This document shows positions 12,543 to 44,135 of a stretch of DNA of 64,000 nt, piece by piece. The DNA is taken from positions 74,334 to 138,333 of the forward strand of contig JAQUMH010000004.1 of assembly GCA_028718185.1 (NCBI GenBank), in the 5' to 3' direction. The notes beneath the pieces are model-generated. The model did no database searches. It was not told where the DNA came from and saw only the letters and a list, made by a program, of their open reading frames with translations. Each line of letters starts with the position of its first letter. Within the stretch, counting starts at the first letter, position 1. The position numbers were made by a program, and so were the translations under genes. The DNA comes from Elusimicrobiota bacterium. GTDB taxonomy: Bacteria; Elusimicrobiota; UBA8919.

Positions 12543-12544
12543 CC

Positions 12545-12625: not shown

Positions 12626-12636
12626 TATATTCCATA

Positions 12637-12708: not shown

Positions 12709-12740
12709 AGTATCACTCAGGAACAAATTTCTTTGAAACA

Positions 12741-13602: not shown

Positions 13603-13603
13603 A

Positions 13604-14598: not shown

Positions 14599-14605
14599 AA
14601 CGAAC

Positions 14606-14716: not shown

Positions 14717-14718
14717 CT

Positions 14719-14979: not shown

Positions 14980-14982
14980 TTT

Positions 14983-15963: not shown

Positions 15964-15964
15964 A

Positions 15965-16540
15965 TTAATTTTCTACTCCACCTAATATTTTCCGAATGTT
16001 TGATTTATGTCTCCACACTATAATAAATGCAAGTAATATAGCGATAAGTACTAAAATCAGCGATTCTTTCAATACGTATAAAAAAATAGGTAGCGATATT
16101 GCAGCAGATATTGAACCTAAAGCTACATATTTGGTTATAATCAAAACAACAACAAAAACAATAACAGCAAGAACAGCTGAAAGAGGTGCAAGTCCTAAAA
16201 ATATTCCACAACCGGTTGCTACACCTTTACCTCCTTTGAACCTTAAAAACGGTGTCCAAATATGTCCTAAAACCGCTAAAAAACCGGAAATTACAGGGAT
16301 AATAAGTAAATTATCGGAAAATAATTTTTTACTTATAAATACCGGAAAGAAACCTTTTAAGACGTCAATAACAAATGTTATTATTCCTGGTTTTTTACCA
16401 AGTGTTCTATATACATTTGTCGCTCCGGGATTGCCGCTACCATAATTCCGGATATCAATCCCATAAAAAATCTTTGAAATTAAATAGGCTGTCGGTATAG
16501 AACCGAATAAAAATGACAGCAATAAAATTAAAAATATCAC
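15965..16540 (-). CDS. plsY: Acyl-phosphate:glycerol-3-phosphate acyltransferase
   Basis: 191 residues, integral membrane. It makes lysophosphatidate from acyl phosphate and G3P. Signature segments are LLSFLFGSIPTAYLISK, GSGNPGATNVYRTLGKKPG (33-51) and the loop FLRFKGGKGVATGCGIFLG (about 98-116), which carry the catalytic and G3P-binding residues. It overlaps pgsA by 4 bp and precedes gpsA: three consecutive phospholipid genes. Confidence 0.96.
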   Translation of the reverse strand: MIFLILLLSFLFGSIPTAYLISKIFYGIDIRNYGSGNPGATNVYRTLGKKPGIITFVIDVLKGFFPVFISKKLFSDNLLIIPVISGFLAVLGHIWTPFLRFKGGKGVATGCGIFLGLAPLSAVLAVIVFVVVLIITKYVALGSISAAISLPIFLYVLKESLILVLIAILLAFIIVWRHKSNIRKILGGVEN

Positions 16541-17064
16541 TTTTTTTCAATCTCCTTAATTCCTGAAAAAGTATAATTCAAAGTTGAAATAATAATTACA
16601 AAAAGCATTAAATAAATTATTGTATTTATTGTCCTTGGAAAAATATTAATAAGTATAGAAAATATAACCACCATTTCCAAAACTGTTGTGGCTTTACCAA
16701 AGAATGTCGGTGAAACAACTGAATTCCCTGTAATATGAAATCTCAGCCACCATCCCAGAAAAACTATTATATCTTTTGTAATTACTACTATTGGTATCCA
16801 TAATGGTATCTTTTTAAGCGCTGCAAAAACTATAAAAGAACTGATTAAAAGAAATTTATCTGCAATAGGATCTAAAAGAGCACCTAATTGTGTCCGCTTT
16901 TTCATTACCCTTGCCAGCATTCCATCAAAAAAATCCGTCAATATACAAAAAGCGAATATGAAAACCGGAAGCCACTTGTTTTCTGCTAACACAGAAATAA
17001 CAAATACAGGGACTGCTATTATTCTTAAAACTGTTAGAGTATTCGGCAATGTAAGGTTTTTCAT
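16537..17064 (-). CDS. pgsA: CDP-diacylglycerol--glycerol-3-phosphate 3-phosphatidyltransferase
   Basis: 175 residues, multi-pass membrane protein. The CDP-alcohol phosphotransferase signature D-x2-D-G-x2-A-R-x8-G-x3-D-x3-D is complete in TDFFDGMLARVMKKRT followed by QLGALLDPIAD (about residues 42-68). It forms phosphatidylglycerophosphate. The N-terminal LPNTLTVLRIIAVPVF is also typical. It overlaps hflX upstream and plsY downstream by 4 bp each. Confidence 0.94.
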   Translation of the reverse strand: MKNLTLPNTLTVLRIIAVPVFVISVLAENKWLPVFIFAFCILTDFFDGMLARVMKKRTQLGALLDPIADKFLLISSFIVFAALKKIPLWIPIVVITKDIIVFLGWWLRFHITGNSVVSPTFFGKATTVLEMVVIFSILINIFPRTINTIIYLMLFVIIISTLNYTFSGIKEIEKK

Positions 17065-18302
17065 ATATTATGTGATAAATATTTTTCTATTTGCCCCCAA
17101 TTTTTTTTATCAATAAGAATTTCCAATTCTGTACAATTTTTAAAAGACTTATACTTTAATATTTTACTTACAGATTTTAGTTTATTAATAATTGATAACG
17201 ATTTATAAGGTACGGATATTTTTCTGTATTCAAGTTTCGCTTCCAATTGCTTGTCAATTAAATAAAGTAACCTATCAACTCCGAAACCGGTAGATGCAGA
17301 AATATTAATATAGTTATCGGTATTATTGTTTTTAATCTCCACAATATCACATTTGTTATAAACATTTAATATAGGTAAATTGTCAGCTCCTATTTCTTTC
17401 AAAACAGATAATACTATGCTTTCACATTCATTGTGATTTGGATTGGAAATATCAATAAGATGAACAATTAAATCAGATTCTGTTATTTCCTCGATTGTTG
17501 ATTTAAAAGCTGCTATTAATTGATGTGGCAATTTTTTTATAAAACCAACTGTATCAGTAAACAATACCCATCTTTGGCTCAACAATTTAACTTTTCTTGT
17601 AGTTGCATCAAGAGTAGAAAAAAGTCTATCATCTGCATATACATTATTTTTCTTTGTAAGGTGGTTAAGTAAAGTAGACTTGCCGGCATTTGTATAACCC
17701 ACTAAAGAAACTATCGGGATAGGGACTTCGTGTCTTCTTGATCTCTGAATTTCACGATGGCATTTAATTTTTCCAATTTCTTTTTTTAAATAAGAAATTC
17801 TATCGCGTATTTTTCTTCTATCGATTTCTATTTTTTTCTCTCCAAATCCTGCCCGTACTCCTATATTTCCAACTTGCTGAGCCATGGATTTTTCTTTACC
17901 TGTCAGCCGTGACAGATTATAATTTTTTTCAGCAAGTTCTATTTGAAGTTTTGCTTCTTGTGTCCTTGCGCGTTGGGCAAAAATATCAAGAATTAACCGG
18001 GTTCTGTCTATAACTTTTACATCAATTATGTTTTCAAGATTTTTCTGTTGAGTAGGCGTCAAATTATCATCAAATATTACTATATCAATATTTTCACTTT
18101 CACATATTTTTTTTATTTCTAAAACTTTTCCTGATCCTATAAAGAATTTAGAATCCGGTGATTTCTTATTTTGTAAAACCGTTTTTGTTGTAATTATCCC
18201 TCTAGTGTAAGCAAGTTGCTTTAATTCTTCTATCGAATTATCGAAATTATTTTTAGTATTGGCATTTACACCGATTAAGAGTGCTTTTTCTTTTTTAATC
18301 AC
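17061..18302 (-). CDS. hflX: Ribosome-associated GTPase HflX
   Basis: 413 residues. The N-terminal HflX domain carries FIGSGKVLEIK and VIDRTRLILDIFAQRA. A coiled coil follows, then the G domain: SLVGYTNAGKSTLLNHLT (G1, about residue 202), LDATTRK (G2), FTDTVGFIKKLPHQLIAAFK (G3) and NVYNKCD (G4). HflX splits stalled or hibernating ribosomes under stress. The start is GTG at 18302, overlapping the miaA stop by 8 bp. The order miaA-hflX is common in bacteria, where hfq is often between them; no hfq is seen here. Confidence 0.95.
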   Translation of the reverse strand: MIKKEKALLIGVNANTKNNFDNSIEELKQLAYTRGIITTKTVLQNKKSPDSKFFIGSGKVLEIKKICESENIDIVIFDDNLTPTQQKNLENIIDVKVIDRTRLILDIFAQRARTQEAKLQIELAEKNYNLSRLTGKEKSMAQQVGNIGVRAGFGEKKIEIDRRKIRDRISYLKKEIGKIKCHREIQRSRRHEVPIPIVSLVGYTNAGKSTLLNHLTKKNNVYADDRLFSTLDATTRKVKLLSQRWVLFTDTVGFIKKLPHQLIAAFKSTIEEITESDLIVHLIDISNPNHNECESIVLSVLKEIGADNLPILNVYNKCDIVEIKNNNTDNYINISASTGFGVDRLLYLIDKQLEAKLEYRKISVPYKSLSIINKLKSVSKILKYKSFKNCTELEILIDKKNWGQIEKYLSHNI

Positions 18303-25231: not shown

Positions 25232-25505
25232 ATACCCTTATCAATTCTTCTTTCTCTTTTCTAGTATAAGTTTTTATTTCCCTTTCCGCATTCAACGCAC
25301 TCTTATAATATCTATATTTCTTTGCATATACTAAACTTATCGGTCCCTTCCCCTTCAGATACTTAGCCCCTCCCTTACCGCTATCATGTTGCTCAAGTCT
25401 GCGTTCAAGGTTGTTTGTATATCCGGTATAATAAGTCCCATGAGCACATTGAACTATATAAACAAAGAACCTATCTTCTCTTTTAATCGGTTTTCTCAAT
25501 TGCAT
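25215..25505 (-). CDS. GIY-YIG nuclease-domain protein (YhbQ/UPF0213-like)
   Basis: 96 residues. FFVYIVQCAHGTYYTGYTNNLERRLEQH matches the family: G-T-Y-Y-T-G is the GIY-YIG core, with the conserved Arg of ERRL, and NAEREIK carries the catalytic Glu. Members are small stand-alone DNA nucleases of uncertain role, often found singly in genomes. It overlaps miaB by 17 bp and touches the nitroreductase stop. A diverged relative is at 57540-57797. Confidence 0.88.
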   Translation of the reverse strand: MQLRKPIKREDRFFVYIVQCAHGTYYTGYTNNLERRLEQHDSGKGGAKYLKGKGPISLVYAKKYRYYKSALNAEREIKTYTRKEKEELIRVYEKDK

Positions 25506-26069
25506 TTATATCCATTTTATCTCTGGTTTTTTCTTTGGCATAGAATCAGGAAAATCCCCTTTAGGATAACCTAGCAAAATAGGACCATATACTTTTTCAC
25601 TTTCTTTTAATTCAAGTGCTTTTCTCACCTCTTGTTCATCCCGTACTAATTGTCCAAAAAATACCCAGCAACTGCCTATGTCAAATGAACGAGCGGACAA
25701 CATTATGTTTTCGCATACCATTGAACAATCACAATCACTTGTCATCCCTGTTCCAATAACGAATACAACAACGGGAGCAGAATAATATACGGGATCTTCA
25801 ACACTGTCATCAATAACTTTTCGCATTTCTTTTAATGATTGAGAAGCATTTGTCATCCAATTTTTATAACGGGGCAATGCAAGAGTAGTTAGTTTCTTTC
25901 TGAATTTTTCATCAGTAATTACAACAAATCTCCATGCTTGCGCATTTCCACCTGTTGGAGCTAGATTTCCAGCATCAATTATTATCTCCAATATATCTTT
26001 TGGAATTGGCTTAGAGTCATAATGTCTTACTGACCTTCTTTTTTTAATAGTTTCAATTACTGAATTCAT
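25506..26069 (-). CDS. Nitroreductase-family flavoprotein
   Basis: 187 residues starting at ATG 26069, chosen because AAGGAGG lies 9 nt upstream. FMN-binding segments are ETIKKRRSVRHYDSKPIP (R-R-S-x-R) and NLAPTGGNAQAWRFVVI; the C-terminal GSCWVFFGQLV and GPILLGYPKG are typical. The family reduces quinones, nitro compounds or flavins with NAD(P)H. There is an unusual CDCSMVCENIM stretch near residue 123, where the family more often has A/S-rich sequence. The substrate is unknown. Confidence 0.88.
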   Translation of the reverse strand: MNSVIETIKKRRSVRHYDSKPIPKDILEIIIDAGNLAPTGGNAQAWRFVVITDEKFRKKLTTLALPRYKNWMTNASQSLKEMRKVIDDSVEDPVYYSAPVVVFVIGTGMTSDCDCSMVCENIMLSARSFDIGSCWVFFGQLVRDEQEVRKALELKESEKVYGPILLGYPKGDFPDSMPKKKPEIKWI

Positions 26070-26153
26070 ACAAGTCATCCTCCTTATGTCACAGATTTTA
26101 CTTTCCATTTTTCGAAGATTGATATTTTCTTTGCACTCCTCTTGAAATTATAT

Positions 26154-26210
26154 CTAAAAAAGTGAATAAATTGTTGTATTTTTCGTGATTTTCATCATTT
26201 TTAGGTTTTA
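26154..26210. repeat. Direct repeat flanking the DUF6788/nucleotidyltransferase module, left copy
   Basis: About 57 bp beginning CTAAAAAAGTGAATAAATTG and ending TCATTTTTAGGTTTTA. It is repeated in the same orientation at 27558-27616 with two substitutions and two small A/T-run length differences. The two copies bracket a 1.35-kb segment with the two small genes and their operators. Confidence 0.9.
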
Positions 26211-26258
26211 CAATTCCAGAAATATTCAATGGTTTTAACTTTTCGTCTCTCTCCAATA

Positions 26259-26283
26259 TTGAGGTGCCGATTTAGCACCTCAA
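26259..26283. other. Perfect hairpin in the gap 26109-26411
   Basis: Nine-bp perfect arms TTGAGGTGC and GCACCTCAA with a 7-nt loop. There is no U tract on either side, so it does not look like a rho-independent terminator. It lies between the left direct repeat and the end of the nucleotidyltransferase gene. Confidence 0.65.
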
Positions 26284-26363
26284 TAGTTCTTAGCATTTTG
26301 AACCGGTTACAATTTGTGACCAGTTCATTTTTTTTATCTGTAGTTTCGTAATTTTCATTTCTC

Positions 26364-26407
26364 TTTACACTACATTGTAGTTTATTTATAATGTTTTGTA
26401 GTGTAAA
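26364..26407 (+). promoter_or_regulatory. Operator-like dyad overlapping a plus-strand promoter
   Basis: Perfect inverted repeat TTTACACTACA (26364-26374) and TGTAGTGTAAA (26397-26407). Within it, TTTACA (26364-26369), a 17-nt spacer and TATAAT (26387-26392) form a plausible plus-strand promoter pointing into the 3' end of the nucleotidyltransferase gene, antisense to it. Activity is inferred. Confidence 0.5.
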
Positions 26408-26411
26408 TATT

Positions 26412-27095
26412 TTATTTTGATAATATATCTAAAATATCAAATTCTTTTTCTTCTTCTAATACATTTAATATTCTTTTTTGCCATTTGACAGGAAGAGATA
26501 TAAATATTTTTGTTACTTCGCTGGATTTGCCGTCTTTTATTAGGGACTTCAATATTTCGAAAGCAGCGGTTTTATCTTTTTCAGATTTTTCTTTTAACTG
26601 TCTTCTTTTAGCTATTATCAATTTATGCAAAGCAAAGTTTATAGGATGCGGCAGGGTGAGATGAAATTCTTCAAGTTTTACACGAATGGTGTTATCTGTT
26701 AATAAATCTAAAAACCTTAGAGTTTGTGCGTTCATTCCTAATTGCGGTAATGGGAAAGGTTTATTAATTCCCTTCCCTTTTTCCGGAACCAGAAGTTCAA
26801 TTATTAAATCCGGATGCTGTAGTTTTATGTAACCTTTAGTTGCACTAAAGGTTACAACAAATCCTAAATCCTCCATGAGTTTTGGTATATCAGTTTTTCC
26901 CTTTATTTTTGAAGGGCTGGGAATTAAGAAATCAATATCTCTGGTTTTAAGAGATATGTTATAATCAACGTTGCTAAAATATTCTTTATAAAATGGAATG
27001 CACCAGCTACCAACAATTATAATATTTTCCAACAATCCGTTATTGTGTAAACGTCTTAAAATTTCAACACATAAATCATATTGCTTCTTTTCCAC
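26412..27095 (-). CDS. Putative nucleotidyltransferase-fold protein of a two-gene regulated module
   Basis: 227 residues starting at GTG 27095, chosen because AGAGG lies 8 nt upstream; an earlier in-frame GTG at 27104 abuts the SD. IIIVGSWCIPFYKEYF followed by KTRDIDFLIPSP gives the G-S...D-x-D pattern of the polymerase-beta-type nucleotidyltransferase superfamily (as in MNT and AbiEii-like toxins). The rest is helical and ends in an acidic tail. The gene overlaps the upstream 105-residue partner by 20 bp, so the two are coupled. By analogy with other such pairs it could be the toxin or modifier of a toxin-antitoxin or phage-defence module; that is an inference. Confidence 0.65.
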   Translation of the reverse strand: MEKKQYDLCVEILRRLHNNGLLENIIIVGSWCIPFYKEYFSNVDYNISLKTRDIDFLIPSPSKIKGKTDIPKLMEDLGFVVTFSATKGYIKLQHPDLIIELLVPEKGKGINKPFPLPQLGMNAQTLRFLDLLTDNTIRVKLEEFHLTLPHPINFALHKLIIAKRRQLKEKSEKDKTAAFEILKSLIKDGKSSEVTKIFISLPVKWQKRILNVLEEEKEFDILDILSK

Positions 27096-27393
27096 GAATT
27101 GCACCTCTTAAATATTTTATCTGTTTCTTAACTTGAGATAATAGATTCCTATATTTAGCTCTAAATATTTTTGCTTTTTCATGCTTTTTAATTATTTTTT
27201 CAGATAGTTTTCCTTTATAAATATCTTTAACTTTGTCTTTTACTCTTAATGCAAGATAATAGTACACATGTCCATGTATCTTTTTAGGTCTTAAGCTTCC
27301 CTTTGGTAATTTTCTTAGGGCATTTTCATACTCTCTTTTCATACGGATAGAGTTTCCCAATTCTTCTTTTAATAAAGCTTTTATAAACGGCAT
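27076..27393 (-). CDS. Small basic DUF6788-like protein, partner of the nucleotidyltransferase
   Basis: 105 residues from ATG 27393 with AGGAG 9 nt upstream. Lys/Arg-rich. The core LPKGSLRPKKIHGHVYYYLA followed by RVKDKVKDIYKGKLSEK matches the G-S-L...K-x-I-x-G-H-x-Y-Y-Y...Y-x-G-K pattern that I associate with DUF6788, a small domain common in archaea and candidate phyla. The C-terminal half is helical and basic, suitable for nucleic-acid contact. It is first in a two-gene unit behind a promoter covered by palindromic operators, so it is a candidate autoregulator or antitoxin. No function is established. Confidence 0.65.
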   Translation of the reverse strand: MPFIKALLKEELGNSIRMKREYENALRKLPKGSLRPKKIHGHVYYYLALRVKDKVKDIYKGKLSEKIIKKHEKAKIFRAKYRNLLSQVKKQIKYLRGAIRGKEAI

Positions 27394-27427
27394 AATAATC
27401 AACTCCTATCTTTTCCTAAAACCAAAA

Positions 27428-27476
27428 TACCCAACATTGACAAATATATTATATAATGTTGGGTAACAAAAGTCAA
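27428..27476 (-). promoter_or_regulatory. Promoter with embedded operator 1 of the two-gene module
   Basis: Minus-strand promoter: TTGACT (27471-27476), 17-nt spacer, TATAAT (27448-27453); predicted start near 27441, 48 nt before the ATG. An inverted repeat with 11-bp arms TACCCAACATT (27428-27438) and AATGTTGGGTA (27455-27465) embraces the -10 box and the start point, the classic layout of a repressor site. Confidence 0.8.
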
Positions 27477-27485
27477 TAATTACTA

Positions 27486-27525
27486 TTACCCAACAATTAG
27501 CTAAATACATCTATTTGTTGGGTAA
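27486..27525. promoter_or_regulatory. Operator 2, upstream of the module promoter
   Basis: Perfect inverted repeat TTACCCAACAA (27486-27496) and TTGTTGGGTAA (27515-27525). It shares the ACCCAACA/TGTTGGGT half-sites with operator 1, so the same protein should bind both. It starts 10 bp upstream of the -35 box. Confidence 0.75.
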
Positions 27526-27557
27526 GAACTATTTATGAACTATAGAGTGCTGAATTG

Positions 27558-27616
27558 CTAAAAAAAAGTGAATAAATTGTTGTATTTATCTTGATTTTCA
27601 TCATTTTTAGGTTTTT
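27558..27616. repeat. Direct repeat flanking the module, right copy
   Basis: Same sequence and orientation as 26154-26210, differing by two substitutions and A/T-run length. It ends 5 bp before the rsgA stop codon. Confidence 0.9.
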
Positions 27617-27620
27617 ACAT

Positions 27621-28706
27621 TTAAAACTCGTAATTTTTTTTGTGTTTTGTTATTTGTTTTGACAATTTGCTTATTTTTCTTTCAGTTATTATTTTTTCAT
27701 TACGTGATTTTATCTTTTGTTTGCGAGACTCCAAGTAACTAATTTCTTTCTTTAATTTAAAATAACTATTAAATCGTTTGGAATCTAAGTCGCCTCTTTC
27801 TATTGCACTCTTAACAGCACATCCCGGTTCATCTTTATGCGAGCAATCCCTAAATCTGCAGTTAGCGACGAACTTTTCTAAGTCAGTGAAAGTATTTCCT
27901 AACGTGCCTTCATCTGTCCATATTTGAATTTCACGTAAACCGGGATTATCAACAACAATCCCGCCTCCGGGAAGAATTATTAATTCCCTACGAGTTGTTA
28001 TATGTCTTCCACGACTATCACTTTCACGCACTGCACCAACTTTTAATCTTTCTTCACCAAGCAGACAATTAATTATTGTTGATTTACCTGCTCCTGAAGA
28101 ACCTAAGAATGCTATGGTTTTTCCTTTTTTAATGTATTTCTTTAAACTTTCAATTCCTTTGCTATTCAAAGCACTTAAAGTATATACCGGAACTCCGAAA
28201 GAAATAGATTTTACTTCTGATATTTTTTCCTGAACATTAGAACATACGTCTGTTTTATTTAGCAAAACAACCTGTTTAGCATTACTATCATCTTTCACAA
28301 GTGCAAGGTAACGCTCGATACGTCTTAAGTTATAATCGCCGTCTAATCCGTTTACTAAAAACACAGTATCTATGTTAGCTACCAATACCTGCTCATCTGT
28401 AATACTACCGGCTATTTTTCTGGATAATTTACTAATCCTTGGAAGAATACCATCAATTATCGCTAAGTCGCCTTCCGGGGATAATCTTGCTACTACCCAA
28501 TCACCAACAACAGGCAATTGACTTATTGATGTAGTGTCAAAACGATATTTTCCTGATATGCCCGCCTTAAATTCGCCAAAGCTACTATAAATCAAATATA
28601 TTTCTCTTTGAGCTGTTGCTACCCTTGCCGGAAATATTTCCTTAGTTTTTATTTCATTAAAGTGATTCTCGAAAAATTCATTCCATCCTAATTCTTTCAA
28701 GTCCAT
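27621..28706 (-). CDS. rsgA: Ribosome small-subunit-dependent GTPase A
   Basis: 361 residues. Circularly permuted GTPase: G4 LLNKTDVCS precedes G1 FLGSSGAGKSTIINCLLG (about residues 200-217) and G3 DNPGLREI. An N-terminal OB domain (about 30-95) and a C-terminal zinc knuckle C-R-F-R-D-C-S-H...P-G-C (about 285-298) complete it. It is a late 30S-subunit assembly factor. A 25-bp gap separates it from the UroD-family gene upstream. Confidence 0.95.
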   Translation of the reverse strand: MDLKELGWNEFFENHFNEIKTKEIFPARVATAQREIYLIYSSFGEFKAGISGKYRFDTTSISQLPVVGDWVVARLSPEGDLAIIDGILPRISKLSRKIAGSITDEQVLVANIDTVFLVNGLDGDYNLRRIERYLALVKDDSNAKQVVLLNKTDVCSNVQEKISEVKSISFGVPVYTLSALNSKGIESLKKYIKKGKTIAFLGSSGAGKSTIINCLLGEERLKVGAVRESDSRGRHITTRRELIILPGGGIVVDNPGLREIQIWTDEGTLGNTFTDLEKFVANCRFRDCSHKDEPGCAVKSAIERGDLDSKRFNSYFKLKKEISYLESRKQKIKSRNEKIITERKISKLSKQITKHKKNYEF

Positions 28707-28731
28707 TGCTTGTTTTTCCTTTGATACATTT

Positions 28732-29739
28732 TTATTTCCCTATTGTAGCATCAATAAGAGTAATTAAATTTTCTAAAGGCACATCTGATTGGAGCGTAAT
28801 ACCAGGTTCAAGTATATATCCACCACCTCTGCCCATTTCCCTTTTAAGTATTTTAACTTCATTTCTAATGTCTTCAGGTGTTCCATAAGGCAGAAGTTGT
28901 TGTGTTTTTAAACCACCGCAAAAAGTCAAACATTTTCCAAATTCCTTCTTAAGCTTAAAAATATCCATTGCTTCCGGTTGAATTGGATGAAGAATATCAA
29001 GTCCAATATCTATCATATCTCCTATGATAGGATAGATATTGCCACAACTATGGTGAAATACTATCCTGCCATTGCTTTTTGCAAATGTATATATTTCTTT
29101 AAGAAGAGGTTTTATGAATCTTCTCCAGTAGTCAGGTGACATCACGAGTGCTTTTTGTGTCCCATAGTCATCACTTATAAAAATTCCATCGAATTGAAAC
29201 CTGTTAAACAAAATCTTCATTGTTTGTAAAATATAATCTGTTATACCCCGTAGGAGTTCCTCAACAAATTCCTGATTGAGAACAATATCCATAAGAATAT
29301 TTTCCATGCCGCGCATAAATGTTGCACGTTCCCAGAGATCTCCAATAGGTACAACTGTGTAGTTGTTTTTGTTTTTCAGGCACCAATCCCCCATATTTTC
29401 AAAACGATATTCACTTGCAGGATTGGGAAATTCATAACTTGACAGATTTGGTTCCGGGCAACAGGGAATAATCGGGGTACCACGGTCAATTTTGCTTGTA
29501 GTCCATACAACCCCATATTCATCTTTGATTGTTTCACCGTAGTCTTCCGGGAAAGCATATAGTGGTTTTATTGATTTTAGTCCATTCATTCGAATTGGTA
29601 AATTAAGTTTTTCTTCAACAGGGACTCCATAATGTTTCTCTAATGCTATACGAATAGGAGGCGTGAACATGAAATTAAAAGGAACCATATCTGTTTCCCG
29701 GTGAGATAACGCTGTTTTTATCAAATCTCTATTTATCAT
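28732..29739 (-). CDS. UroD-family protein with MtaA-like zinc site
   Basis: 335 residues of the UroD/MtaA/CmuA superfamily. The C-terminal half has IVFHHSCGNIYPIIGDMIDIG, then HPIQPEAMD, then CLTFCGGLKTQQLL: the H-x-C ... C pattern that binds zinc in corrinoid-linked methyltransferases is intact here. It could move a methyl group between a corrinoid protein and a thiol, or process a similar substrate, but no corrinoid protein is adjacent. It is the last gene of the catabolic-looking cluster 28.7-36 kb, 33 bp after the heparinase-like gene. Confidence 0.8.
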   Translation of the reverse strand: MINRDLIKTALSHRETDMVPFNFMFTPPIRIALEKHYGVPVEEKLNLPIRMNGLKSIKPLYAFPEDYGETIKDEYGVVWTTSKIDRGTPIIPCCPEPNLSSYEFPNPASEYRFENMGDWCLKNKNNYTVVPIGDLWERATFMRGMENILMDIVLNQEFVEELLRGITDYILQTMKILFNRFQFDGIFISDDYGTQKALVMSPDYWRRFIKPLLKEIYTFAKSNGRIVFHHSCGNIYPIIGDMIDIGLDILHPIQPEAMDIFKLKKEFGKCLTFCGGLKTQQLLPYGTPEDIRNEVKILKREMGRGGGYILEPGITLQSDVPLENLITLIDATIGK

Positions 29740-29772
29740 AAGTTATATTAAGTATTTTAATAACCAAGACAA

Positions 29773-31572
29773 TCATATCTGTTCATTTTTTGGTAGAATT
29801 CTCATTAATATTTTAATTTCCAATTCTTTTTTTAATGGCTGTTTTATGATGCAAGTTATTCTTTTCAAAGTTATTGGCTTAGAATTTTCCATAGATTCTT
29901 TTTTCAGTATTGTAATTGAAAACCTCAATCCCTTGGGTTCTTTTACCATTAATTCCAAAATATTTTCTTTACCCAAAATATGCACACTTGAACCATGTGA
30001 TTTTACCGGCAAATAAGTAACCAAAGATTCTTCTATTTTTTTAGGTATTCTTTTGAACACAAAGGAATCTTTTAAAGACATAATATTGTTTTTATCCGGT
30101 TTTAATGTTAATATTCGTCTTAAAGATTTTATATTGGCAATATCATAAGCTTTTGCAAATTCAATAACAATTTGTTTTTCATTTTTGTCCGATTTAAATG
30201 AAAGTATTTTACCAAGATAATTTTTGCCGGTACCTTGTAATTGCCCGTCAATAACGGGAACACTATGCCCGAAAGAGTTAGCAAAAATGTTTTCATAACG
30301 CCGTGAAGTGAAATAATTTCGCGTATATAAACCACTACCGGGGTCACAAAGAAAAGTCTCCCCGTTAATATGTAAAATAAAACTGCCGATATCATTGTGA
30401 TTATGATTCTCATTGTTGTTTCCTGCTTTGACTGCTAAAACACTACGGCCAATATTATTTATATTTACTATTGTTTTAACGATTTCTGTTTTAGGTAGAA
30501 AAGTATCATGAGGAATACAATATTTGGATGTTTTTTTACCATCCCACCATAGAATATTACGTAATGCTATAGGAAATTTAGACAAACCATATTCTAAGTT
30601 ATTAAAGGTTGAAATAAGATTTATAAGTTGTTTTGATTTTGTTTGTTCAGCAAGTTTTGAAATAACTCCCGGTAAGAAATGAGAATTATTATAATCAGAA
30701 AAAGTGATAAAATTACCTGGAGATAAATTAGCATTAAAAGGGAATTCACTTATTTGTTTTATTTGATTTGAAGACAATAAATTTGTTTTTCCTTTTGTTC
30801 TTTTTTTTAAAAGTTCGGAAAAAATAACATAATACAATAAACCGTATTGCCAGTAATTTAGTCCTTCAGTCGTCCCACCATCTTTTTCAAAAGCTTTATC
30901 AATATATACCTTTAGACCTTCTAACACCATACCAATTCCTTTTGCTAATCTTTTTTCATCTTTTTCTAAATAAAGAAATACAGCACCAATACAACTGTTG
31001 CATACACTATTCCAGTTATTAGGACCTTTGTACCACCATAAATCTTTACTCTGGGTTAGGTAAGGAATAAATATTCTTGTATCTATTTCATTTTCAACTC
31101 TATTTATTATGTCCTTAGGTAAGTAACTCTCCATAATTTTAACAATCTCAGCCAACATGAGGGCTGTTTCTGCTGACGTAAGTCCAATCTTTTCAGGATG
31201 AGCAGGAATAGCCCATGTTGTTTCTTCGCATATACTGCATATATAATCACATATGTTATTCAATAAATCTTTTCTATTATAAAAGATAAAGTGTAAAACT
31301 GCCGCAGTAAGTTTTGTGCGTTTAAGATGATAAGGTTTTTCATAATCGCCCCGTTTATTAGTGGAAAAATATTTTTGAAATAAACCATACGAGGTTTGTG
31401 GAATATTTTCAATATCAATTAAATATTTTCCGGTTTCTTTTAGAATCATTTTAGCGGATAACGTTTTTTTTATTTCTCTTATATTTGCACGTTTTCCGTA
31501 TATATCATCAAAAAGAAAATTAGAATTGTTTTTAGGTAATAACTGCATTTGTGGCGGGATTAATATTTTCAT
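29773..31572 (-). CDS. Heparinase II/III-like polysaccharide lyase
   Basis: 599 residues with no signal peptide. The N-terminal two thirds form an (alpha/alpha)-toroid: LWWYKGPNNWNSVCNSC, near residue 185, is the conserved W-N...C segment, and GGTTEGLNYWQYG follows. The C-terminal beta-sandwich begins at about 375 and carries NHNHNDIGSFILHING and CDPGSGLYTRNYF, the hallmark heparinase II/III motif. The family cleaves uronate-containing glycans (heparin, alginate, ulvan-like). Without a signal sequence it should act on imported oligosaccharides. It lies 12 bp downstream of the NIF3-like gene, in the same operon. Confidence 0.85.
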   Translation of the reverse strand: MKILIPPQMQLLPKNNSNFLFDDIYGKRANIREIKKTLSAKMILKETGKYLIDIENIPQTSYGLFQKYFSTNKRGDYEKPYHLKRTKLTAAVLHFIFYNRKDLLNNICDYICSICEETTWAIPAHPEKIGLTSAETALMLAEIVKIMESYLPKDIINRVENEIDTRIFIPYLTQSKDLWWYKGPNNWNSVCNSCIGAVFLYLEKDEKRLAKGIGMVLEGLKVYIDKAFEKDGGTTEGLNYWQYGLLYYVIFSELLKKRTKGKTNLLSSNQIKQISEFPFNANLSPGNFITFSDYNNSHFLPGVISKLAEQTKSKQLINLISTFNNLEYGLSKFPIALRNILWWDGKKTSKYCIPHDTFLPKTEIVKTIVNINNIGRSVLAVKAGNNNENHNHNDIGSFILHINGETFLCDPGSGLYTRNYFTSRRYENIFANSFGHSVPVIDGQLQGTGKNYLGKILSFKSDKNEKQIVIEFAKAYDIANIKSLRRILTLKPDKNNIMSLKDSFVFKRIPKKIEESLVTYLPVKSHGSSVHILGKENILELMVKEPKGLRFSITILKKESMENSKPITLKRITCIIKQPLKKELEIKILMRILPKNEQI

Positions 31573-31584
31573 ATATACATTCTC

Positions 31585-32364
31585 TTATTTTATTGAGCTG
31601 TATGGGAACGGAACATCTATATATTCAACGGGTATGTTTGGAAATATTTGTTTAAGATAACCTGCCATAGCTTGCATTCCAGGTTTTTCAGCAGTAGCAT
31701 GATTAACTATCAAAAGCGGCATATCTAAATCTATGGACCAAAGCCCGCCATTCCAAGTGTTTATACCGTCATCTGTTGCAAGAATTGCATCAGGTTTTAG
31801 TTCAATCATATAAGGAAGATTTGTAATCGCTCCTGTACCAATAACCAAACGTTCAATCTTTTTCTTCCTGTCACCTAATATAAGAACTGTATCTTGTCCC
31901 AGAGGTTTTACTTTATTAAGGATTTTATTAGCAACTTCTTCCAATGTAATATTGCCCATTAAACAAGTCTTATAATATGACCTTAACTGTCGTTCTTCTG
32001 TTTCAAAACCAAGAAACTTACCCCAAGCATCAGGAATTCCAACTTCCGGCATGCGGTCCCAGGTATCATGACAACGTATTAGAGTAATGCCAAATTCATC
32101 AAGCAGTTTTTTCTTCTTATTAATAAGCTGATCACCTGTTACTGTACCTTGATAGGAAGTAAAAAATGCCGGTTCATGAGTGATAAACAGGTTAAGTCCC
32201 TTATCAGATGCCTGTTGTAAAGAAGCATTGGTTGGAATCCATGATGTTGCAATCCCTTTTACTTCCATATCCGGGTTCCCATGTAAAAACAAGTCACAAG
32301 TTTTGTCCCAGTGTACCCAAGTTCCAACTTTCTGAAAATGTTCCATAACTTCTTTTGCTTTCAT
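31585..32364 (-). CDS. NIF3/YbgI-family dinuclear metal protein
   Basis: 259 residues. Recognised by GIATSWIPTNASLQQASDKG (about 37-56), NLFITHEPAFF (metal-binding His) and the C-terminal VNHATAEKPGMQAMAGYL with the second His/Glu metal ligands. The metal-binding family is widespread, its function mostly unsolved. Members of this subgroup occur in sugar or methyl-transfer catabolic clusters. A very good SD (AAGGAGG) lies before the ATG. The context (lyase, UroD-type and CehA-type hydrolase) suggests a step in the same pathway. Confidence 0.8.
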   Translation of the reverse strand: MKAKEVMEHFQKVGTWVHWDKTCDLFLHGNPDMEVKGIATSWIPTNASLQQASDKGLNLFITHEPAFFTSYQGTVTGDQLINKKKKLLDEFGITLIRCHDTWDRMPEVGIPDAWGKFLGFETEERQLRSYYKTCLMGNITLEEVANKILNKVKPLGQDTVLILGDRKKKIERLVIGTGAITNLPYMIELKPDAILATDDGINTWNGGLWSIDLDMPLLIVNHATAEKPGMQAMAGYLKQIFPNIPVEYIDVPFPYSSIK

Positions 32365-32429
32365 ATATTATAACCTCCTTAAAACATTAACAACTATTTA
32401 TGTAAATTATTTATCATTATTAAAAAAAA

Positions 32430-33461
32430 CTACCAATTAAGAACTATAACTCCTGTTTTAAAATTGTACTTTTCCAAATATTTTTTATTTAATCCAAGTA
32501 TTACTATTTTATTTGATATGGCTGATTTTACAAGTAAATCCATATCATTTAAGTGAAGCTGGGAAGGTTGAATGGCAAATAAGTTTTTAGTTTCGCACAT
32601 TGATTTAATGAAGATATCGCCTTTCCCGCAAAAATGAATACAACCACCGAATTCGTCAAGCAATTTCTGGTTATATGGTTTAACGAATTCATTATAATGC
32701 CCTTCAGATAACATCACTGCAGAATCATCCCTTATCAATATATTGCCTTTAACATAAAATTGCCAATGGGTTTTAATAATATCTTCTTTCCCTGTTAAAC
32801 GAAGCCATTCTTTCATCCAAACAGAATAAGTTTTTGTAATTAATTCTAATAAGCTATGTACCACTTCGGGACAATCATATAATGCAAGAAAAATATCATG
32901 ACCCCATAGAAGATGAGCTACATCAAAAGGTCCCTGCAAGTCAGGATGATAAATATCAATTGCTTCGTTCAATTTTGGATAATTTGATAATGTTTCTTTG
33001 TAGAAATCAAGTGTTTCAAAACATTTTTTGCCGAGTCCGTTTTTCAAATCAGGAATACCCTTGTCAATGAGTTTCTGGATTTCATCTCGACTTTCTAAAT
33101 GATGGCTCCACGGAAGTGAGTTTTCTGTAAGTTGATATTTTGCACCTAATATAGATGGTAATATTACTGTTCCATAATGACAACGTATGTTTAAAGGATG
33201 ATAATCTTTCAATTGATTATGTAAGAAAGGAAGTCTTAACTGATCAAGAAGCATTTTTGATTCATCAACAAAAATATCATTATATGGATAAACAGGCCAA
33301 TCTTTATCATAAACTTTTGGAATATCATTACTAATATAGGGCAATTCTTCCACTTTTTCAAATTTAAATATTTTCCCACATATTTCCTTAGCTTTTTTTT
33401 GGTGTTCAAGGTCAACCGTTTTTTCAAATTTAGATAAATACTTTTCTAGTATCTGTTTCAT
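32430..33461 (-). CDS. Divergent UroD-family protein
   Basis: 343 residues, the third UroD-superfamily member in this window. The C-terminal features are LDEFGGCIHFCGKGDIFIKSM (H-x-C-G), IQPSQLHLNDMD and IVILGLNKK. Only the first half of the H-x-C...C zinc motif is kept. The N-terminal part is rich in Trp, Tyr and His (DWPVYPYND, ENSLPWSHHLES), and DLQGPFDVAHLLWG corresponds to the UroD substrate-pocket loop. It sits between the NIF3-like and CehA-like genes; the function is not known. Confidence 0.72.
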   Translation of the reverse strand: MKQILEKYLSKFEKTVDLEHQKKAKEICGKIFKFEKVEELPYISNDIPKVYDKDWPVYPYNDIFVDESKMLLDQLRLPFLHNQLKDYHPLNIRCHYGTVILPSILGAKYQLTENSLPWSHHLESRDEIQKLIDKGIPDLKNGLGKKCFETLDFYKETLSNYPKLNEAIDIYHPDLQGPFDVAHLLWGHDIFLALYDCPEVVHSLLELITKTYSVWMKEWLRLTGKEDIIKTHWQFYVKGNILIRDDSAVMLSEGHYNEFVKPYNQKLLDEFGGCIHFCGKGDIFIKSMCETKNLFAIQPSQLHLNDMDLLVKSAISNKIVILGLNKKYLEKYNFKTGVIVLNW

Positions 33462-33490
33462 TTATTTATATAATGTCTCCATTAAAACAT

Positions 33491-36028
33491 TTAATGGTGT
33501 TCAGAATGATCATCTAATGGATTGTGATTATGAAAATGCCCCATTTGATGCATCCGATTGTGGAAACTACGGTAAATTGCAGTAAGTTTAAGTTTCATTC
33601 TTTTATAGATTTCAGTTTCTGCACGTGTTCCTACTGTATCCAAATAGGCAATAGCACCCTGAATTTGGTTTAGAATTGTTACAGCATCAGCAGCAGAAGA
33701 AAATTCAATTCCTTCAATATCAATCATTACAGGAGAAGAATGGGCTGCAATAATTTCTAGTTTGTCAGAATAATAACCCCGTACAAGTAAGGCAATCCAT
33801 GAACTTTTTTTGATTTTTACTTCCCACTTTCCGCTATCACCATGCCCTCCGTGCAATTTAGAAGATTTACTTTCAATTATTTCACCGTTAACTATTAATT
33901 CTACTTTAGATATTGGCAATGTTACACTATCTACTTTCCATTCTACATTTACAGTTCCTCCGGTTCTTGCTATCTTTATTCGTGTTCCGGGTAAATTACC
34001 ATCTACAGAAAACTCCATCAGAGGTCCTGCTGTAACAAAAGTATTGCCTTTTCTTATTGCTTTTTTCCATAATTCATATGTAAATTCTTCATCTTTACCA
34101 ATATATGTATATGTGCGAATATTTCCTACAGCAGTATCCGCTTCCATTTTATCTGTTCCACCAACTATTGGAACCATTAATCCACAGTTTAAATATCTGT
34201 ACCAATCTGAAAGTGAATACGGTCCAATTCCTCCTTTCAACTCAACTCCATCAGCGTTGCCACTGGTAATAACAGCAGCATTTTCTAATCTTGGAGAAGG
34301 AAAATGAGGAATAATAACTAATCCATCTTGTTTTTTACATTGTTCTGCCCATTCAGTTAAAAGTGCTTCTACCGGATCTCCCAAAGCTGACTCATCAGGT
34401 CCGCCCGTAGTCATAGGTGCAATTATATCACCTTCATATCCAAGTAAAGAAATATGTCCAAGAATATCTTGTCGATTCTCTGTCCCTACACGTACTAAAT
34501 ATTCGCCGTTGCCTCCGGTTTCTTTAGAACCGAATGTTGTTTTACCGTCAAAATCTCCAACATTCGTCATTAATTCTCCCCACTGACTTGCAAGAAGATT
34601 TACAATATTAACACCTTCAGATTCACCTTCAAGTAAAGCGGTTTTTGGAGAAAGAAAATGAACATGTGTATCTGCTGTAACCCATCCTTTTTCCCGCCAC
34701 ATTAACGCTTTTTCAATTTCAATTGTTATTTCATCAGTAGACGGCTGAATCTTTATTGTCTTTCTTACAGGTACGATTTCGAAACCTTTTGATATTTCAA
34801 TATAAACATTTCCCAATGGTAAATCAACTACAGTTTTTCCGGTAATGTAAGTACAATAGTGGATTTTTTCGTTAACATAATCACAGCTATAGTCTTCAAA
34901 CCATGAAGGATTAGGTATTCTATTTCTATCAATCGGAGCCAAGTATTCACCTGCTTCACCATGAATATGCAATCTTACAGGAACATACTTCTTACTGCCT
35001 TTTTCCACTACCTTTAATGTTACCCGTTGAGTTGCAGGAGTTACTACTTGTAAGACCATCTTCTGTTTTTCAATGTTTTTTAAAGGAATTACTTTTTCTC
35101 CGGATATATGAAAAACGGCATCAGGATGTGCAGTATATTCGATTAATACTTCTTGTTCAGATATTTCCGGGACAGAATTATTAGGTGTTCCTCTCCACGA
35201 TTTATTTGGATATACCGGTTGTAATATAGCGGAGATTACCTGACCCATATCAAGTTTTACCTGTTCAAGCAATCCTTTATTATCTAAATCCGGCTTGAAT
35301 TTCTCATTTTTGGGTAGTTTAAGAATTGCTTTTTTTCGTGATTGCCATCTTAATGGATTATCTGACGCTTCACCTGCAGAAATTGATGATAAAACAGTAA
35401 TTCCGGACTTTGGTATAAATCGTATCGAAGCAATTTTTTTATTTAAATAAGGGTTCTTCCATGCATACAGCCAGTTCATCCATTTTTCATTAGTTAAATA
35501 TCTTGTTCTTGTTTGAGACCATCCCCAACGATTAGATAATTGCTCATGATGAGGTCGTACCGGACACGGTTTAATGTGAGAAACAGATTCAAAACAATTT
35601 TCTCCCCACCTGCGAACAAACATATTTATCTGGTATCTTCTATTAATCGGTATTTTAAATTCAGTTCCATCAGAATAAACTACAATATAATCTGCAACAT
35701 GTTCACCTAATCTTCCATCTCCTCCCATCGGCGAAATAAATCCATATTTGTTTTTTTTAAGAGGCATTATATCGGTAGTATGCAAGAATACCAGCCATTG
35801 TGTTTTCAAATCAACATCAATATTAATTTCTTTATCTTTTATCAAAATTACTTTATTTATATCAAACGGGATACCCCACGCAACGCATTTACCGGCAGGT
35901 GCATATTTTAGAGCTGATATCATTTCCTTTGATATCCCTGTTCCGTCTAAATTCTGCAGAGAAATATTTCCCTTGATATTAACTGAAGAAAATAATTTTG
36001 TACATGGACCGTCTTCACTGACAGGCAC
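33491..36028 (-). CDS. Large CehA/McbA-type metal-dependent (PHP-like) hydrolase
   Basis: About 845 residues. The start is set at GTG 36028 because the ATG at 36040 is itself part of the SD (ATGGAGG), which lies 5 nt before the GTG. The N-terminal 440 residues look like beta-sandwich modules. The catalytic part begins WVTADTHVHFLSPKTA (H-x-H metal site, near residue 455), then VIIPHFPSP, and GGTDKMEAD, a CehA/McbA arrangement. Homologues hydrolyse ester or carbamate bonds, but here the neighbours suggest a glycan-linked substrate. The C-terminus is His-rich (MHQMGHFHNHN), possibly metal-storing. No signal peptide is visible. Confidence 0.75.
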   Translation of the reverse strand: MPVSEDGPCTKLFSSVNIKGNISLQNLDGTGISKEMISALKYAPAGKCVAWGIPFDINKVILIKDKEINIDVDLKTQWLVFLHTTDIMPLKKNKYGFISPMGGDGRLGEHVADYIVVYSDGTEFKIPINRRYQINMFVRRWGENCFESVSHIKPCPVRPHHEQLSNRWGWSQTRTRYLTNEKWMNWLYAWKNPYLNKKIASIRFIPKSGITVLSSISAGEASDNPLRWQSRKKAILKLPKNEKFKPDLDNKGLLEQVKLDMGQVISAILQPVYPNKSWRGTPNNSVPEISEQEVLIEYTAHPDAVFHISGEKVIPLKNIEKQKMVLQVVTPATQRVTLKVVEKGSKKYVPVRLHIHGEAGEYLAPIDRNRIPNPSWFEDYSCDYVNEKIHYCTYITGKTVVDLPLGNVYIEISKGFEIVPVRKTIKIQPSTDEITIEIEKALMWREKGWVTADTHVHFLSPKTALLEGESEGVNIVNLLASQWGELMTNVGDFDGKTTFGSKETGGNGEYLVRVGTENRQDILGHISLLGYEGDIIAPMTTGGPDESALGDPVEALLTEWAEQCKKQDGLVIIPHFPSPRLENAAVITSGNADGVELKGGIGPYSLSDWYRYLNCGLMVPIVGGTDKMEADTAVGNIRTYTYIGKDEEFTYELWKKAIRKGNTFVTAGPLMEFSVDGNLPGTRIKIARTGGTVNVEWKVDSVTLPISKVELIVNGEIIESKSSKLHGGHGDSGKWEVKIKKSSWIALLVRGYYSDKLEIIAAHSSPVMIDIEGIEFSSAADAVTILNQIQGAIAYLDTVGTRAETEIYKRMKLKLTAIYRSFHNRMHQMGHFHNHNPLDDHSEHH

Positions 36029-36111
36029 AATTACCTCCATATATAACCTTCAGGAATGTCATATCTTCTTGCAACTTTAGAATATATGACATTAAATATT
36101 TTAAATATTGA

Positions 36112-37566
36112 TTAATTATTTTTATAAGATTGTACAAGAGAAGATACTACAAAATACACAAAACCAAACTGAAAAAGAAGAATAATAGGGATTAACATGT
36201 AGAGTCGTGTCATTATAATCAGATATAACAAGATTGTAAAATAAATTGCCATTGCAAATTCAATATAAAATATTAAACCATGTCGCGATTCTTTGGTTTT
36301 GATTTTTTTTAAAGAGTCCCGTGTTATTCCGTATTTAGGAGTTCTTACAAATTCAGTTTTATATCCATAAATGCCTTCAAGAACAAACTTTGAATTATTT
36401 ACAGCAAGACCTATTCCGGCTGACATTAAAAACGGAAGATATTTTATTGAATCCCAGAAACTATAACCAAGTTCTTTTTGAGAGATATAATAAAAATATG
36501 CTATCGATAGAATGCTGAGTAAAAATATCGGCATATCAATCATAAAAATATCCCTGTGATTTGTATTTAATCTGACTAAAATCGCAGGTAACAAAACCAT
36601 TGATATTATTGCTAAATACAAATGCCAGAAATTACTTGTTAGGTGAAATATTGCTTCAGCTTTTACCTTAAAAGGGGTTTTACTTTTTAATATTACACCA
36701 ATTAATTTCTTCGCTACTTCTATAGTCCCTTTTGCCCATCTGCCTTGCTGAGTTTTAAACGCATTTACATCTACCGGAAGTTCCGCGGGAGTTACAACAT
36801 CAGGAACAAAAATAAATTTCCAGCCTTTTAATTGTGCCCTATATGATAAATCCATATCTTCTGTTAGCGTATCACTCTGCCACCCGCCCGATTCTTCTAT
36901 TGCTTTTTTTCGCCAAATCCCTGCTGTTCCGTTAAAATTAAAAAACCTGCCGGAACGATTTCTGGCAGTATGTTCTATTAAAAAATGCCCGTCTAATATT
37001 ATTGCCTGTATTTTAGTCAAAAGCGAATATTTCCTGTTTGTATGCCCCCATCTTGCTTGTACCATACCGATGTTATCGCTTGAAAAATATGGCAGTAACT
37101 TTTTTAAAAAATCATATTTCGGAATAAAATCCGCATCAAATATAGCAATAAATTCACCGGTTGCGAGTGATAAACCGCTTTGTAACGCTCCGGCTTTATA
37201 TCCTGTTCTATCATCTCTGTGAATGTATAGAATATTAAAACCTTCTTTTTTATATTTTTCAACAGATGTTTTCGCTATTTTTTGTGTTTCATCAGTAGAA
37301 TCATCAAGAACCTGGATTTCCAGTTTTTCTTTCGGATAATCAAGTTTTACAATACTTTCTATTAAGCGGGATACAACATTTGGTTCGTTGTAAACAGGCA
37401 GTTGAATTGTTATTTTGTAGTATGGTTCTTCAAGAGGTTTTAGGAGAGGCACATCTTTTTTATACTTTTTATAAAAGTATATCAAAAGATATCTATGACC
37501 ACCAAAAATTATAAGTCCTAGTAGAGATACAAAATATAGAAAAAGAAGAATATTATTTGTTGTTAT
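36112..37566 (-). CDS. Processive family-2 glycosyltransferase, membrane-bound
   Basis: The body (from TTG 37485, 457 residues) has VYNEPNVVSRLIESI, VLDDSTDET, FDADFIPKYDF, TEDMDLSYRAQLKGW and QQGRW, i.e. D, DxD, TED and QxxRW of processive GT2 enzymes (cellulose synthase/CsgA-like). C-terminal membrane helices follow. The frame stays open upstream and encodes an extra hydrophobic helix (NNILLFLYFVSLLGLIIF) expected in the family. The only start consistent with an SD (GAGG, 7 nt away) is ATA at 37566; no ATG, GTG or TTG exists in between except TTG 37485. I give the extended coordinates; the start is uncertain. It follows the DksA-type gene by 16 bp. Confidence 0.8.
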   Translation of the reverse strand: MTTNNILLFLYFVSLLGLIIFGGHRYLLIYFYKKYKKDVPLLKPLEEPYYKITIQLPVYNEPNVVSRLIESIVKLDYPKEKLEIQVLDDSTDETQKIAKTSVEKYKKEGFNILYIHRDDRTGYKAGALQSGLSLATGEFIAIFDADFIPKYDFLKKLLPYFSSDNIGMVQARWGHTNRKYSLLTKIQAIILDGHFLIEHTARNRSGRFFNFNGTAGIWRKKAIEESGGWQSDTLTEDMDLSYRAQLKGWKFIFVPDVVTPAELPVDVNAFKTQQGRWAKGTIEVAKKLIGVILKSKTPFKVKAEAIFHLTSNFWHLYLAIISMVLLPAILVRLNTNHRDIFMIDMPIFLLSILSIAYFYYISQKELGYSFWDSIKYLPFLMSAGIGLAVNNSKFVLEGIYGYKTEFVRTPKYGITRDSLKKIKTKESRHGLIFYIEFAMAIYFTILLYLIIMTRLYMLIPIILLFQFGFVYFVVSSLVQSYKNN

Positions 37567-43139: not shown

Positions 43140-43190
43140 ACCCACCTCCCTTTCTCTCGAAGAGTTCCCCGATGTAACACCGGGTTTAAT

Positions 43191-43336
43191 GAACAAACAG
43201 GTTTCCTGACTCAGGTTCGTCTGAAATTTCGCCTTCCCATACCGATTTTTTGTCGGGATAGTGGCATTTATAAAACTTCATCCCCTTTACAGTAGCGGGA
43301 CTGTTCCCGATTTACACGGGATTCCCTGTTTTGTTC
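43191..43336 (-). ncRNA. Cobalamin riboswitch, canonical, upstream of btuB
   Basis: On the minus strand: closing stem GAACAAA(A)CAGG / CCTGTTTGTTC, core GGGAATCCCGTG...CAGTCCCGCTACTGTAA, then GGGAAGGCGAAA, and the B12 box GAGTCAGGAAACCTG. These match the class-I (AdoCbl) consensus. A GC-rich hairpin (43167-43184) follows without a U tract, so control may be translational. The 5' end overlaps the btuD stop codon, so btuB expression can be controlled separately from the btuFCD genes upstream. Confidence 0.93.
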
Positions 43337-44135
43337 ATGCCTGCTTGCCGGCAGGCAGGTTTGACACTAATACAACATACGGCTTTTTTGAAATAGGATT
43401 TTCTTTGACAACAACAATTGTATTATAAACATCTTCAATGAGTTTGTAGTTCAAGACACTTTCAGGTTTCCCGTCAGCAGAAACTCTGCCTTCTTTTATA
43501 AGAATTATACGATTACAATATTCAGACGCAAGATTTAAATCGTGCATTATTGATAATATTGTTATACCATTTGTATTCATATTCTTTAGTATGTCCATTA
43601 TTTCCACCTGATGTTTTATGTCCAAATGTGTTATCGGTTCATCCAAAAGCAGTATTTTTGGCTGTTGTGCGATAGCTTGTGCTAAAAAGACTCTTTGTCT
43701 TTCACCACCTGAAAGTTCGCTGATTTTTTTTTCTTTTAAAGATATTACATCAAATTCAACCATAGCTTTTTCTACTATTTCCATATCGCTGCTTCCTAAT
43801 TTCTCAAAACGTTTTAAATATGGAAATCTGCCCATGCAAACATATTCTTCTACGGTAAAAGGAAATATTACGTTTAAAAACTGGGGAAGCACCGCTACAC
43901 TTCTTGCAAGTTCACTAAAAGAGATTTCAGAAAGATTCTTTCCTTTTAATAATATTTCCCCTTTATAATGTCTTATTATTTTAGTGAGCGCTCTAAAAAG
44001 AGTTGTTTTCCCGGAGCCGTTAGGACCCAAAACCCCTATAAAATCACCGTCGTTCACAGAAAAAGACAGGTCTTTTATTATAGATTTGTCATCATAACCG
44101 CAAACAAGATTTTTTACTTCTAAAATATTTCCCAT
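43335..44135 (-). CDS. btuD: Cobalamin ABC transporter ATP-binding protein
   Basis: 266 residues of FecE/BtuD type. Walker A GVLGPNGSGKTTLFRALT (34-51), signature LSGGERQRVFLAQAIAQQP (about 138-156), Walker B ILLLDEPITHLD and the switch His in SIMHD. It energises vitamin B12 import with btuC and btuF encoded just upstream. The last residues LPAGKQA are encoded by the mini-palindrome at 43340-43359, so the C-terminus is an added tail. The gene overlaps btuC by 16 bp. Confidence 0.9.
   Translation of the reverse strand: MGNILEVKNLVCGYDDKSIIKDLSFSVNDGDFIGVLGPNGSGKTTLFRALTKIIRHYKGEILLKGKNLSEISFSELARSVAVLPQFLNVIFPFTVEEYVCMGRFPYLKRFEKLGSSDMEIVEKAMVEFDVISLKEKKISELSGGERQRVFLAQAIAQQPKILLLDEPITHLDIKHQVEIMDILKNMNTNGITILSIMHDLNLASEYCNRIILIKEGRVSADGKPESVLNYKLIEDVYNTIVVVKENPISKKPYVVLVSNLPAGKQA
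43340..43359. repeat. GC-rich mini-palindrome, copy 2, encoding the btuD C-terminus
   Basis: CCTGCTTGCCGGCAGGCAGG, the same family as 12741-12760. Read in frame it encodes L-P-A-G-K-Q-A just before the btuD stop, and its end is 4 bp from the riboswitch. Confidence 0.8.

Follow-up and report, generated by a model that had tools for sequence, protein, structure and literature searches.

We analyzed a window of 64,000 nucleotides from an Elusimicrobiota bacterium (GenBank assembly GCA_028718185.1, contig JAQUMH010000004.1, positions 74,334 to 138,333) and found in it a block of five consecutive open reading frames (ORFs) at 28732–36040 of the window, all on the minus strand. In our judgment there is about an even chance that this block is a catabolic cassette, co-directional and laterally acquired, that acts on an imported, decorated acidic oligosaccharide. 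Its members belong to known families in an uncommon combination, for which literature searches returned no account, and a uronate oligosaccharide is our best guess at the substrate. In the order of transcription, the genes are as follows:

33491..36040, minus strand: CehA/McbA-family metallohydrolase of 849 amino acids, first gene of the cassette (NF038032, 1.6e-38)
32430..33461, minus strand: UroD2, a divergent URO-D superfamily protein of 343 amino acids (PF01208, 3e-7)
31585..32364, minus strand: DUF34/NIF3 protein of 259 amino acids, a His-Glu variant (PF01784, 9e-19; PDB 9g9u, 1.5e-23)
29773..31572, minus strand: heparinase II/III-like lyase of 599 amino acids, nearest to PL33 (PF07940, 4e-8)
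28732..29739, minus strand: UroD1, an MtaA-like URO-D superfamily protein of 335 amino acids (PF01208, 5e-22; MtaA 4ay7, 6e-10)

We favor this reading because the genes are tightly spaced in one direction, four of them have no close orthologue in 247 other genomes of the phylum, and the block occupies a variable slot of the chromosome. It is also favored because the closest relatives found for UroD1 and CehA share one Bacteroidota genome, because the lyase residues match those of polysaccharide lyase family 33 (PL33), and because relatives of the NIF3 protein and CehA are found in sugar-catabolic loci.

The intergenic gaps measure 29 base pairs (bp) between CehA and UroD2, 65 bp between UroD2 and NIF3, 12 bp between NIF3 and the lyase, and 33 bp between the lyase and UroD1. 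On the outer sides, RsgA starts 25 bp past UroD1, and the GT2 gene ends 71 bp ahead of CehA. An earlier, sequence-only reading of this DNA had described five consecutive, short-spaced minus-strand genes, with which the ORFs and their gaps of 12–65 bp agree; its start of the block was right, while its end (36028) fell 12 bases short of 36040. All its family calls were recovered with Pfam and NCBIfam (PF01208 twice, PF07940, PF01784, and NF038032). CehA scored 132.9 bits against NF038032 (CehA_McbA, cut-off 80 bits) and the NIF3 protein 68.5 bits against PF01784 (cut-off 23.4 bits). No signal peptide or twin-arginine (Tat) motif was visible when the N-termini of the five proteins were inspected by eye, as the same reading had said of signal peptides. 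Promoter and terminator scans of the locus did no better than shuffled sequences.

Of all the evidence, the sequence-level match of the lyase to PL33 speaks most strongly for a uronate substrate. The best solved relatives of this protein are the PL33 structures 8r73 (3.7e-37, phmmer), 8r75 (2.8e-34), 8r6z, and 8r70. In PL33, the invariant residues N238, Y291, and H444 form part of the catalytic apparatus (PMC11848413), and N186, Y240, and H390 of the lyase, counted along the alignments, fall on these three positions, so the catalytic residues are intact. A valine stands at the position of PL33 W242, as in PL33_2, a subfamily active on chondroitin sulfate and gellan (PMC11848413).

CehA likely hydrolyzes a decoration, with a substrate that differs between hosts. 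Six residues that would form its metal site (D457, H459, H461, H529, H579, and D630) are invariant in nine CehA sequences from three bacterial phyla. Its relative in Bradyrhizobium lies three genes from a GH88 gene and four from a dihydrodipicolinate synthase (DHDPS)-family gene, and a relative in a Bacteroidota contig adjoins a GH106-like gene; the Acidobacteriota neighborhoods held little of note. The structure models of CehA and UroD2 are of low to moderate confidence; that of CehA (predicted local distance difference test, pLDDT, of 66) matched mostly immunoglobulin- and fibronectin type III-like (Ig/Fn3-like) beta domains, with marginal E-values.

The putative metal site of the NIF3 protein comprises H63, E64, H99, D103, H222, and E226. 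A dual-histidine motif is a key motif of bacterial and archaeal DUF34/NIF3 members and is altered in eukaryotes (PMC8469502). In one alignment, SA1388 shows this His-His pair where the window protein has His-Glu, and the His-Glu pair at 63–64 was found in all 10 aligned homologues, the window protein and nine relatives, together with conserved H99, H222, and E226; at position 103, seven of them have Asp and the other three His. Relatives on Lactiplantibacillus plasmids lie beside a mannose-type phosphotransferase system and a ChbG deacetylase, the one in SM23_62 (Bacteroidota) has a YdjC-family neighbor, and those in haloarchaea are near sulfatase, Gfo/Idh, and aldolase genes. The copies in Bacteroidota, Acidobacteriota, and Spirosoma carry twin-arginine N-termini, which the window copy lacks. 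The sequence-only reading had reserved a glycan role for the lyase; this link stands for the lyase, but not its exclusivity, since NIF3 and CehA relatives also occur in sugar-catabolic loci.

Two side observations concern this NIF3 variant. A His-Glu NIF3 gene adjacent to a YdjC/ChbG-family gene recurs across phyla, in Bacteroidota (locus L046, 8832–10686) and on a Lactiplantibacillus plasmid (locus L072, 7974–9591). An unannotated NIF3 relative was also found at 331911–332617 of CP061244.1, a 1.41 Mb record labeled as an Escherichia coli plasmid, whose size suggests that the record is mislabeled or chimeric.

To place the five proteins, their relatives were sought among 248 genomes drawn evenly from the phylum (247 besides the present one, seven of the same family and no congener), 89 genomes of a Bacteroidota order, 247 Acidobacteriota, and plasmids; Planctomycetota, Lentisphaerota, Verrucomicrobiota, and Bacillota, the likely donor phyla, lie outside this sample. 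Where queries were combined, scoring was limited to the best few candidates of each genome. In the 247 other genomes of the phylum, UroD2 had no match below 1e-15, and CehA had nothing below 1e-20 except one partial match at 28% identity. With a combined query, in which at most three candidates of each genome were scored, the lyase had only a 26% match below 1e-10 in the phylum, and NIF3 had none. UroD1 does have relatives in its own phylum, the best of them 42% identical. The closest UroD1 found is a 61% identical orthologue in Bacteroides sp. SM23_62 (Bacteroidota), with which it pairs in the tree with a support of 1.0. The closest CehA orthologues found are 56–59% identical in Bacteroidota and Acidobacteriota and 53% identical on a Mesorhizobium plasmid. 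SM23_62 holds both the UroD1 relative and a 58–59% identical CehA orthologue, unlinked on different contigs. In 247 Bacteroidota genomes, there was a single UroD2 relative (32% identity), and it sits in a corrinoid locus. UroD2 relatives were absent from viral contigs, and on plasmids, there was only a weak Gemmatirosa match.

The five-gene block occupies a variable chromosomal slot, delimited by the following features:

25232..36111, no strand assigned: variable slot from MiaB to GT2 that holds the cassette; same-family genomes differ there
27621..28706, minus strand: RsgA GTPase, ancestral gene of the slot, outside the cassette and downstream of it in transcription (76% identical to RsgA in genome G021)
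36112..37485, minus strand: GT2 glycosyltransferase, conserved backbone upstream of the cassette (70–77% identical and syntenic in six same-family genomes)

Six genomes of the same family retain GT2 and the neighboring backbone genes, and in five, the fetched stretch also includes MiaB. In genome G018, MiaB directly neighbors GT2 (4114/4116 in locus L090), and the slot is empty. The slot of G021 contains the 76% identical RsgA and other genes; three unrelated ORFs separate this RsgA from GT2, at precisely the place of the five-gene block here. The slot of a third genome of the family (G012) is filled with still different genes. In the window, the slot also holds a nitroreductase, a nucleotidyltransferase-family protein, and a GIY-YIG-like ORF. 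No tRNA was found at the block, and its ends carry only short AT-rich repeats. From its absence in the sampled phylum and its position in the slot, we infer that the block was probably acquired from outside the lineage; loss in all the sampled relatives is a less simple alternative.

Neither URO-D protein has the His-Cys-Cys zinc site of the S-methyltransferases. UroD1 keeps H230-x-C232 but has Ile where MtaA has its third ligand, a Cys, and where most relatives have His; UroD2 keeps H276-x-C278 but ends before the segment with the third ligand. Both also score far under the TIGR01463 cut-off of 235 bits (UroD1 59 bits, UroD2 16 bits). The best Foldseek matches of UroD2 are all URO-D or MtaA proteins, and its model, with a pLDDT of 55, supports the URO-D fold only. 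Two rows from plasmid records were left out of the structure modeling. We considered a frameshifted or truncated UroD2 gene and set it aside, as the 65 bases past the stop codon are AT-rich and no missing tail is visible by eye; the short C-terminus is taken as real, although this is unproven.

The sequence-only reading had proposed that the nearby cobalamin region and a zinc-site UroD would suit corrinoid methyl chemistry. This proposal was not sustained: the third zinc ligand is absent, no corrinoid protein or activator (Ram/RACo) is encoded in the block or elsewhere in the window, and the cobalamin genes are backbone. These genes (BtuCDF-like and CobS/T/U, at 43–49 kb of the window) are kept in largely the same order in genome G002 and partly in G015 and G006, all of which lack the five-gene block, so their proximity to the cassette carries no weight and was ruled out as a link to corrinoids. 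A cobalamin riboswitch at 43179–43379, upstream of a TonB-dependent receptor gene and near the BtuCDF-like and CobS/T/U genes, marks this region as one of corrinoid uptake and salvage.

The search for a corrinoid protein beside the block, a check that the same reading had set, led instead to contig C11, where the only B12-binding_2 match of the genome lies among UroD-type genes of its own. This locus (L057, G000:C11:40000-58000, 2917–17620) encodes the corrinoid protein, three UroD-type genes, and a pterin-binding methyltransferase-like gene, together with GH130, GH42, ThuA, two Gfo/Idh genes, and an AraC-type regulator, and is a good candidate for demethylating methylated sugars in a corrinoid-dependent manner. 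The two RACo matches of the genome are on contigs C16 and C13. On C16 (L061, G000:C16:14000-26000), RACo adjoins genes resembling those for carbon monoxide dehydrogenase/acetyl-CoA synthase (CODH/ACS), which suggests a Wood-Ljungdahl pathway in this genome.

Two further UroD contexts were observed. At 1609–5126 of the window, a LarA-like racemase gene, a UroD-family gene whose zinc site reads His-Ser-Asp, and an alanine dehydrogenase gene are adjacent. In a Bacteroidota genome (G366:C19, locus L063, 3114–10317), a corrinoid protein gene stands with three UroD-family genes, including the UroD2 relative, between glycosidase-like flanks.

If the five proteins do share a pathway, its steps, in an order that we propose, could run as follows. 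The oligosaccharide would enter through a transporter encoded elsewhere, and CehA, a predicted PHP-fold metallohydrolase, would take off an ester, amide, or similar group. Cleavage by beta-elimination beside a uronate would follow, carried out by the PL33-like lyase with its Asn/Tyr/His set, and the NIF3 variant could act on the released sugar as a metal-dependent hydrolase or deacylase. UroD1 and UroD2, as TIM barrels, might carry out a cation-assisted step on an unusual sugar acid (decarboxylation, lyase reaction, or O-demethylation). A bolder version, in which the His-Glu NIF3 is a sugar-catabolic metalloenzyme of the deacylase or lactonase type rather than a housekeeping protein, and the cassette an undescribed modified-uronate pathway with corrinoid-free UroD proteins of new chemistry, seems to us rather unlikely.

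Several observations weigh against a catabolic cassette. No two of the five genes were seen side by side in any sampled genome, whether of the phylum, the Bacteroidota order, the Acidobacteriota, or the plasmids, so the case for a shared pathway comes from one genome, through spacing and co-absence. The sequence-only reading had called these members rarely seen together, which holds as far as it could be tested, and had set a comparison of neighborhoods as the test of its idea; the homologues proved unclustered in every searchable group, which counts against that idea. No transporter or regulator lies within the block. In Mesorhizobium, CehA is surrounded by amine ABC transporter, proline racemase, and glutamine-synthetase-family genes, and in Deinococcus, peptide-type ABC transporter genes accompany a NIF3 relative, so neither of the two families has an exclusive link to glycans. 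Codon usage and GC content at third codon positions (GC3) of the block are ordinary for the genome; atypical composition was therefore dropped as a sign of transfer, and any transfer would be old or from a similar donor. With this composition and no tRNA or clear repeat, lateral acquisition is inferred from absence and position. To our knowledge, none of the five proteins has a close homologue that has been assayed, PL33 excepted at the family level.

A rival reading is a chance assembly, in which the genes arrived singly in an insertion-prone slot, have unrelated functions, and share a direction as the stretch is mostly minus; we regard this as possible but doubtful. Most window ORFs of at least 150 amino acids are indeed on the minus strand, the slot also carries unrelated genes such as the nitroreductase and differs in content between relatives, and a partial cluster was seen nowhere else among the sampled genomes. 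However, three of the four junctions have gaps of 12–33 bp, four genes in a row are missing from the phylum sample, and a single Bacteroidota genome holds the nearest sampled relatives of both UroD1 and CehA. Corrinoid-dependent O-demethylation of a methylated uronate, the model of the sequence-only reading, with UroD1 or UroD2 as the methyltransferase and a corrinoid protein acting in trans, is unlikely. The genome does encode a corrinoid protein and two RACo proteins, and the locus of one UroD2 relative in Bacteroidota includes a corrinoid protein. UroD-family O-methyltransferases may have one or both Cys ligands replaced (PMC10418091), which leaves room for an O-methyltransferase whose site is reduced, so the model is weakened rather than disproved. 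Yet the block has neither corrinoid protein nor activator, the C11 protein has its own UroD partners, the third-ligand position is Ile in UroD1 and has no counterpart in UroD2, and the nearby cobalamin genes persist in relatives without the block. Very improbable, in our view, is a block acting on nitrogen-containing or acylated small molecules of the amide or carbamate type, with the heparinase-like protein as a minor or divergent lyase. The Mesorhizobium neighborhood of CehA would fit, and the named CehA enzymes reportedly hydrolyze carbamates; against this, the lyase keeps all PL33 catalytic residues, and the Bradyrhizobium CehA lies near GH88. As for the cassette reading, the part of the earlier proposal that survives within it is a cytoplasmic catabolic set with a lyase whose catalytic residues agree with those of PL33 uronate lyases, and not the corrinoid methyl chemistry.

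DUF34/NIF3 proteins and the UroD-type proteins that are not methyltransferases form large, widespread families with no agreed function. A probably mobile set that joins members of both with an intact-site lyase points to uronate oligosaccharides as a substrate class to try. The tempting tie to the nearby cobalamin genes is removed, and the real corrinoid locus of the genome is placed on C11.

Compared with PL33 (BT4410, structures 8r6z–8r75), the lyase shares an alignment of ~450 residues, the catalytic trio, and the Val at the W242 position seen in PL33_2, but it has no apparent signal peptide and a shorter N-terminus, and it is likened to the family by sequence alignment. CehA has the above-cut-off domain of the CehA/McbA metallohydrolases (NF038032) and their D-x-H-x-H, His, His, and Asp residues, but at 849 amino acids, it carries extra beta-rich domains and, unlike its Bacteroidota and Acidobacteriota orthologues, no Tat signal. 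The NIF3 protein shares with YbgI, YqfO, and PDB 9g9u the Pfam match and the His, Asp, His, and Glu in register; it differs by the His-Glu pair and by having several relatives in sugar-catabolic rather than housekeeping contexts. With the MtaA/CmuA corrinoid methyltransferases and the mlp gene clusters (PMC10418091), the cassette has in common the URO-D fold and His-x-Cys, but it lacks the third zinc ligand, a corrinoid protein, and an activator, and its scores are far under the NCBIfam cut-offs. Finally, like the polysaccharide utilization loci of Bacteroidota, the cassette combines a lyase and accessory enzymes in one block, but it lacks SusCD, exported enzymes, and a regulator.

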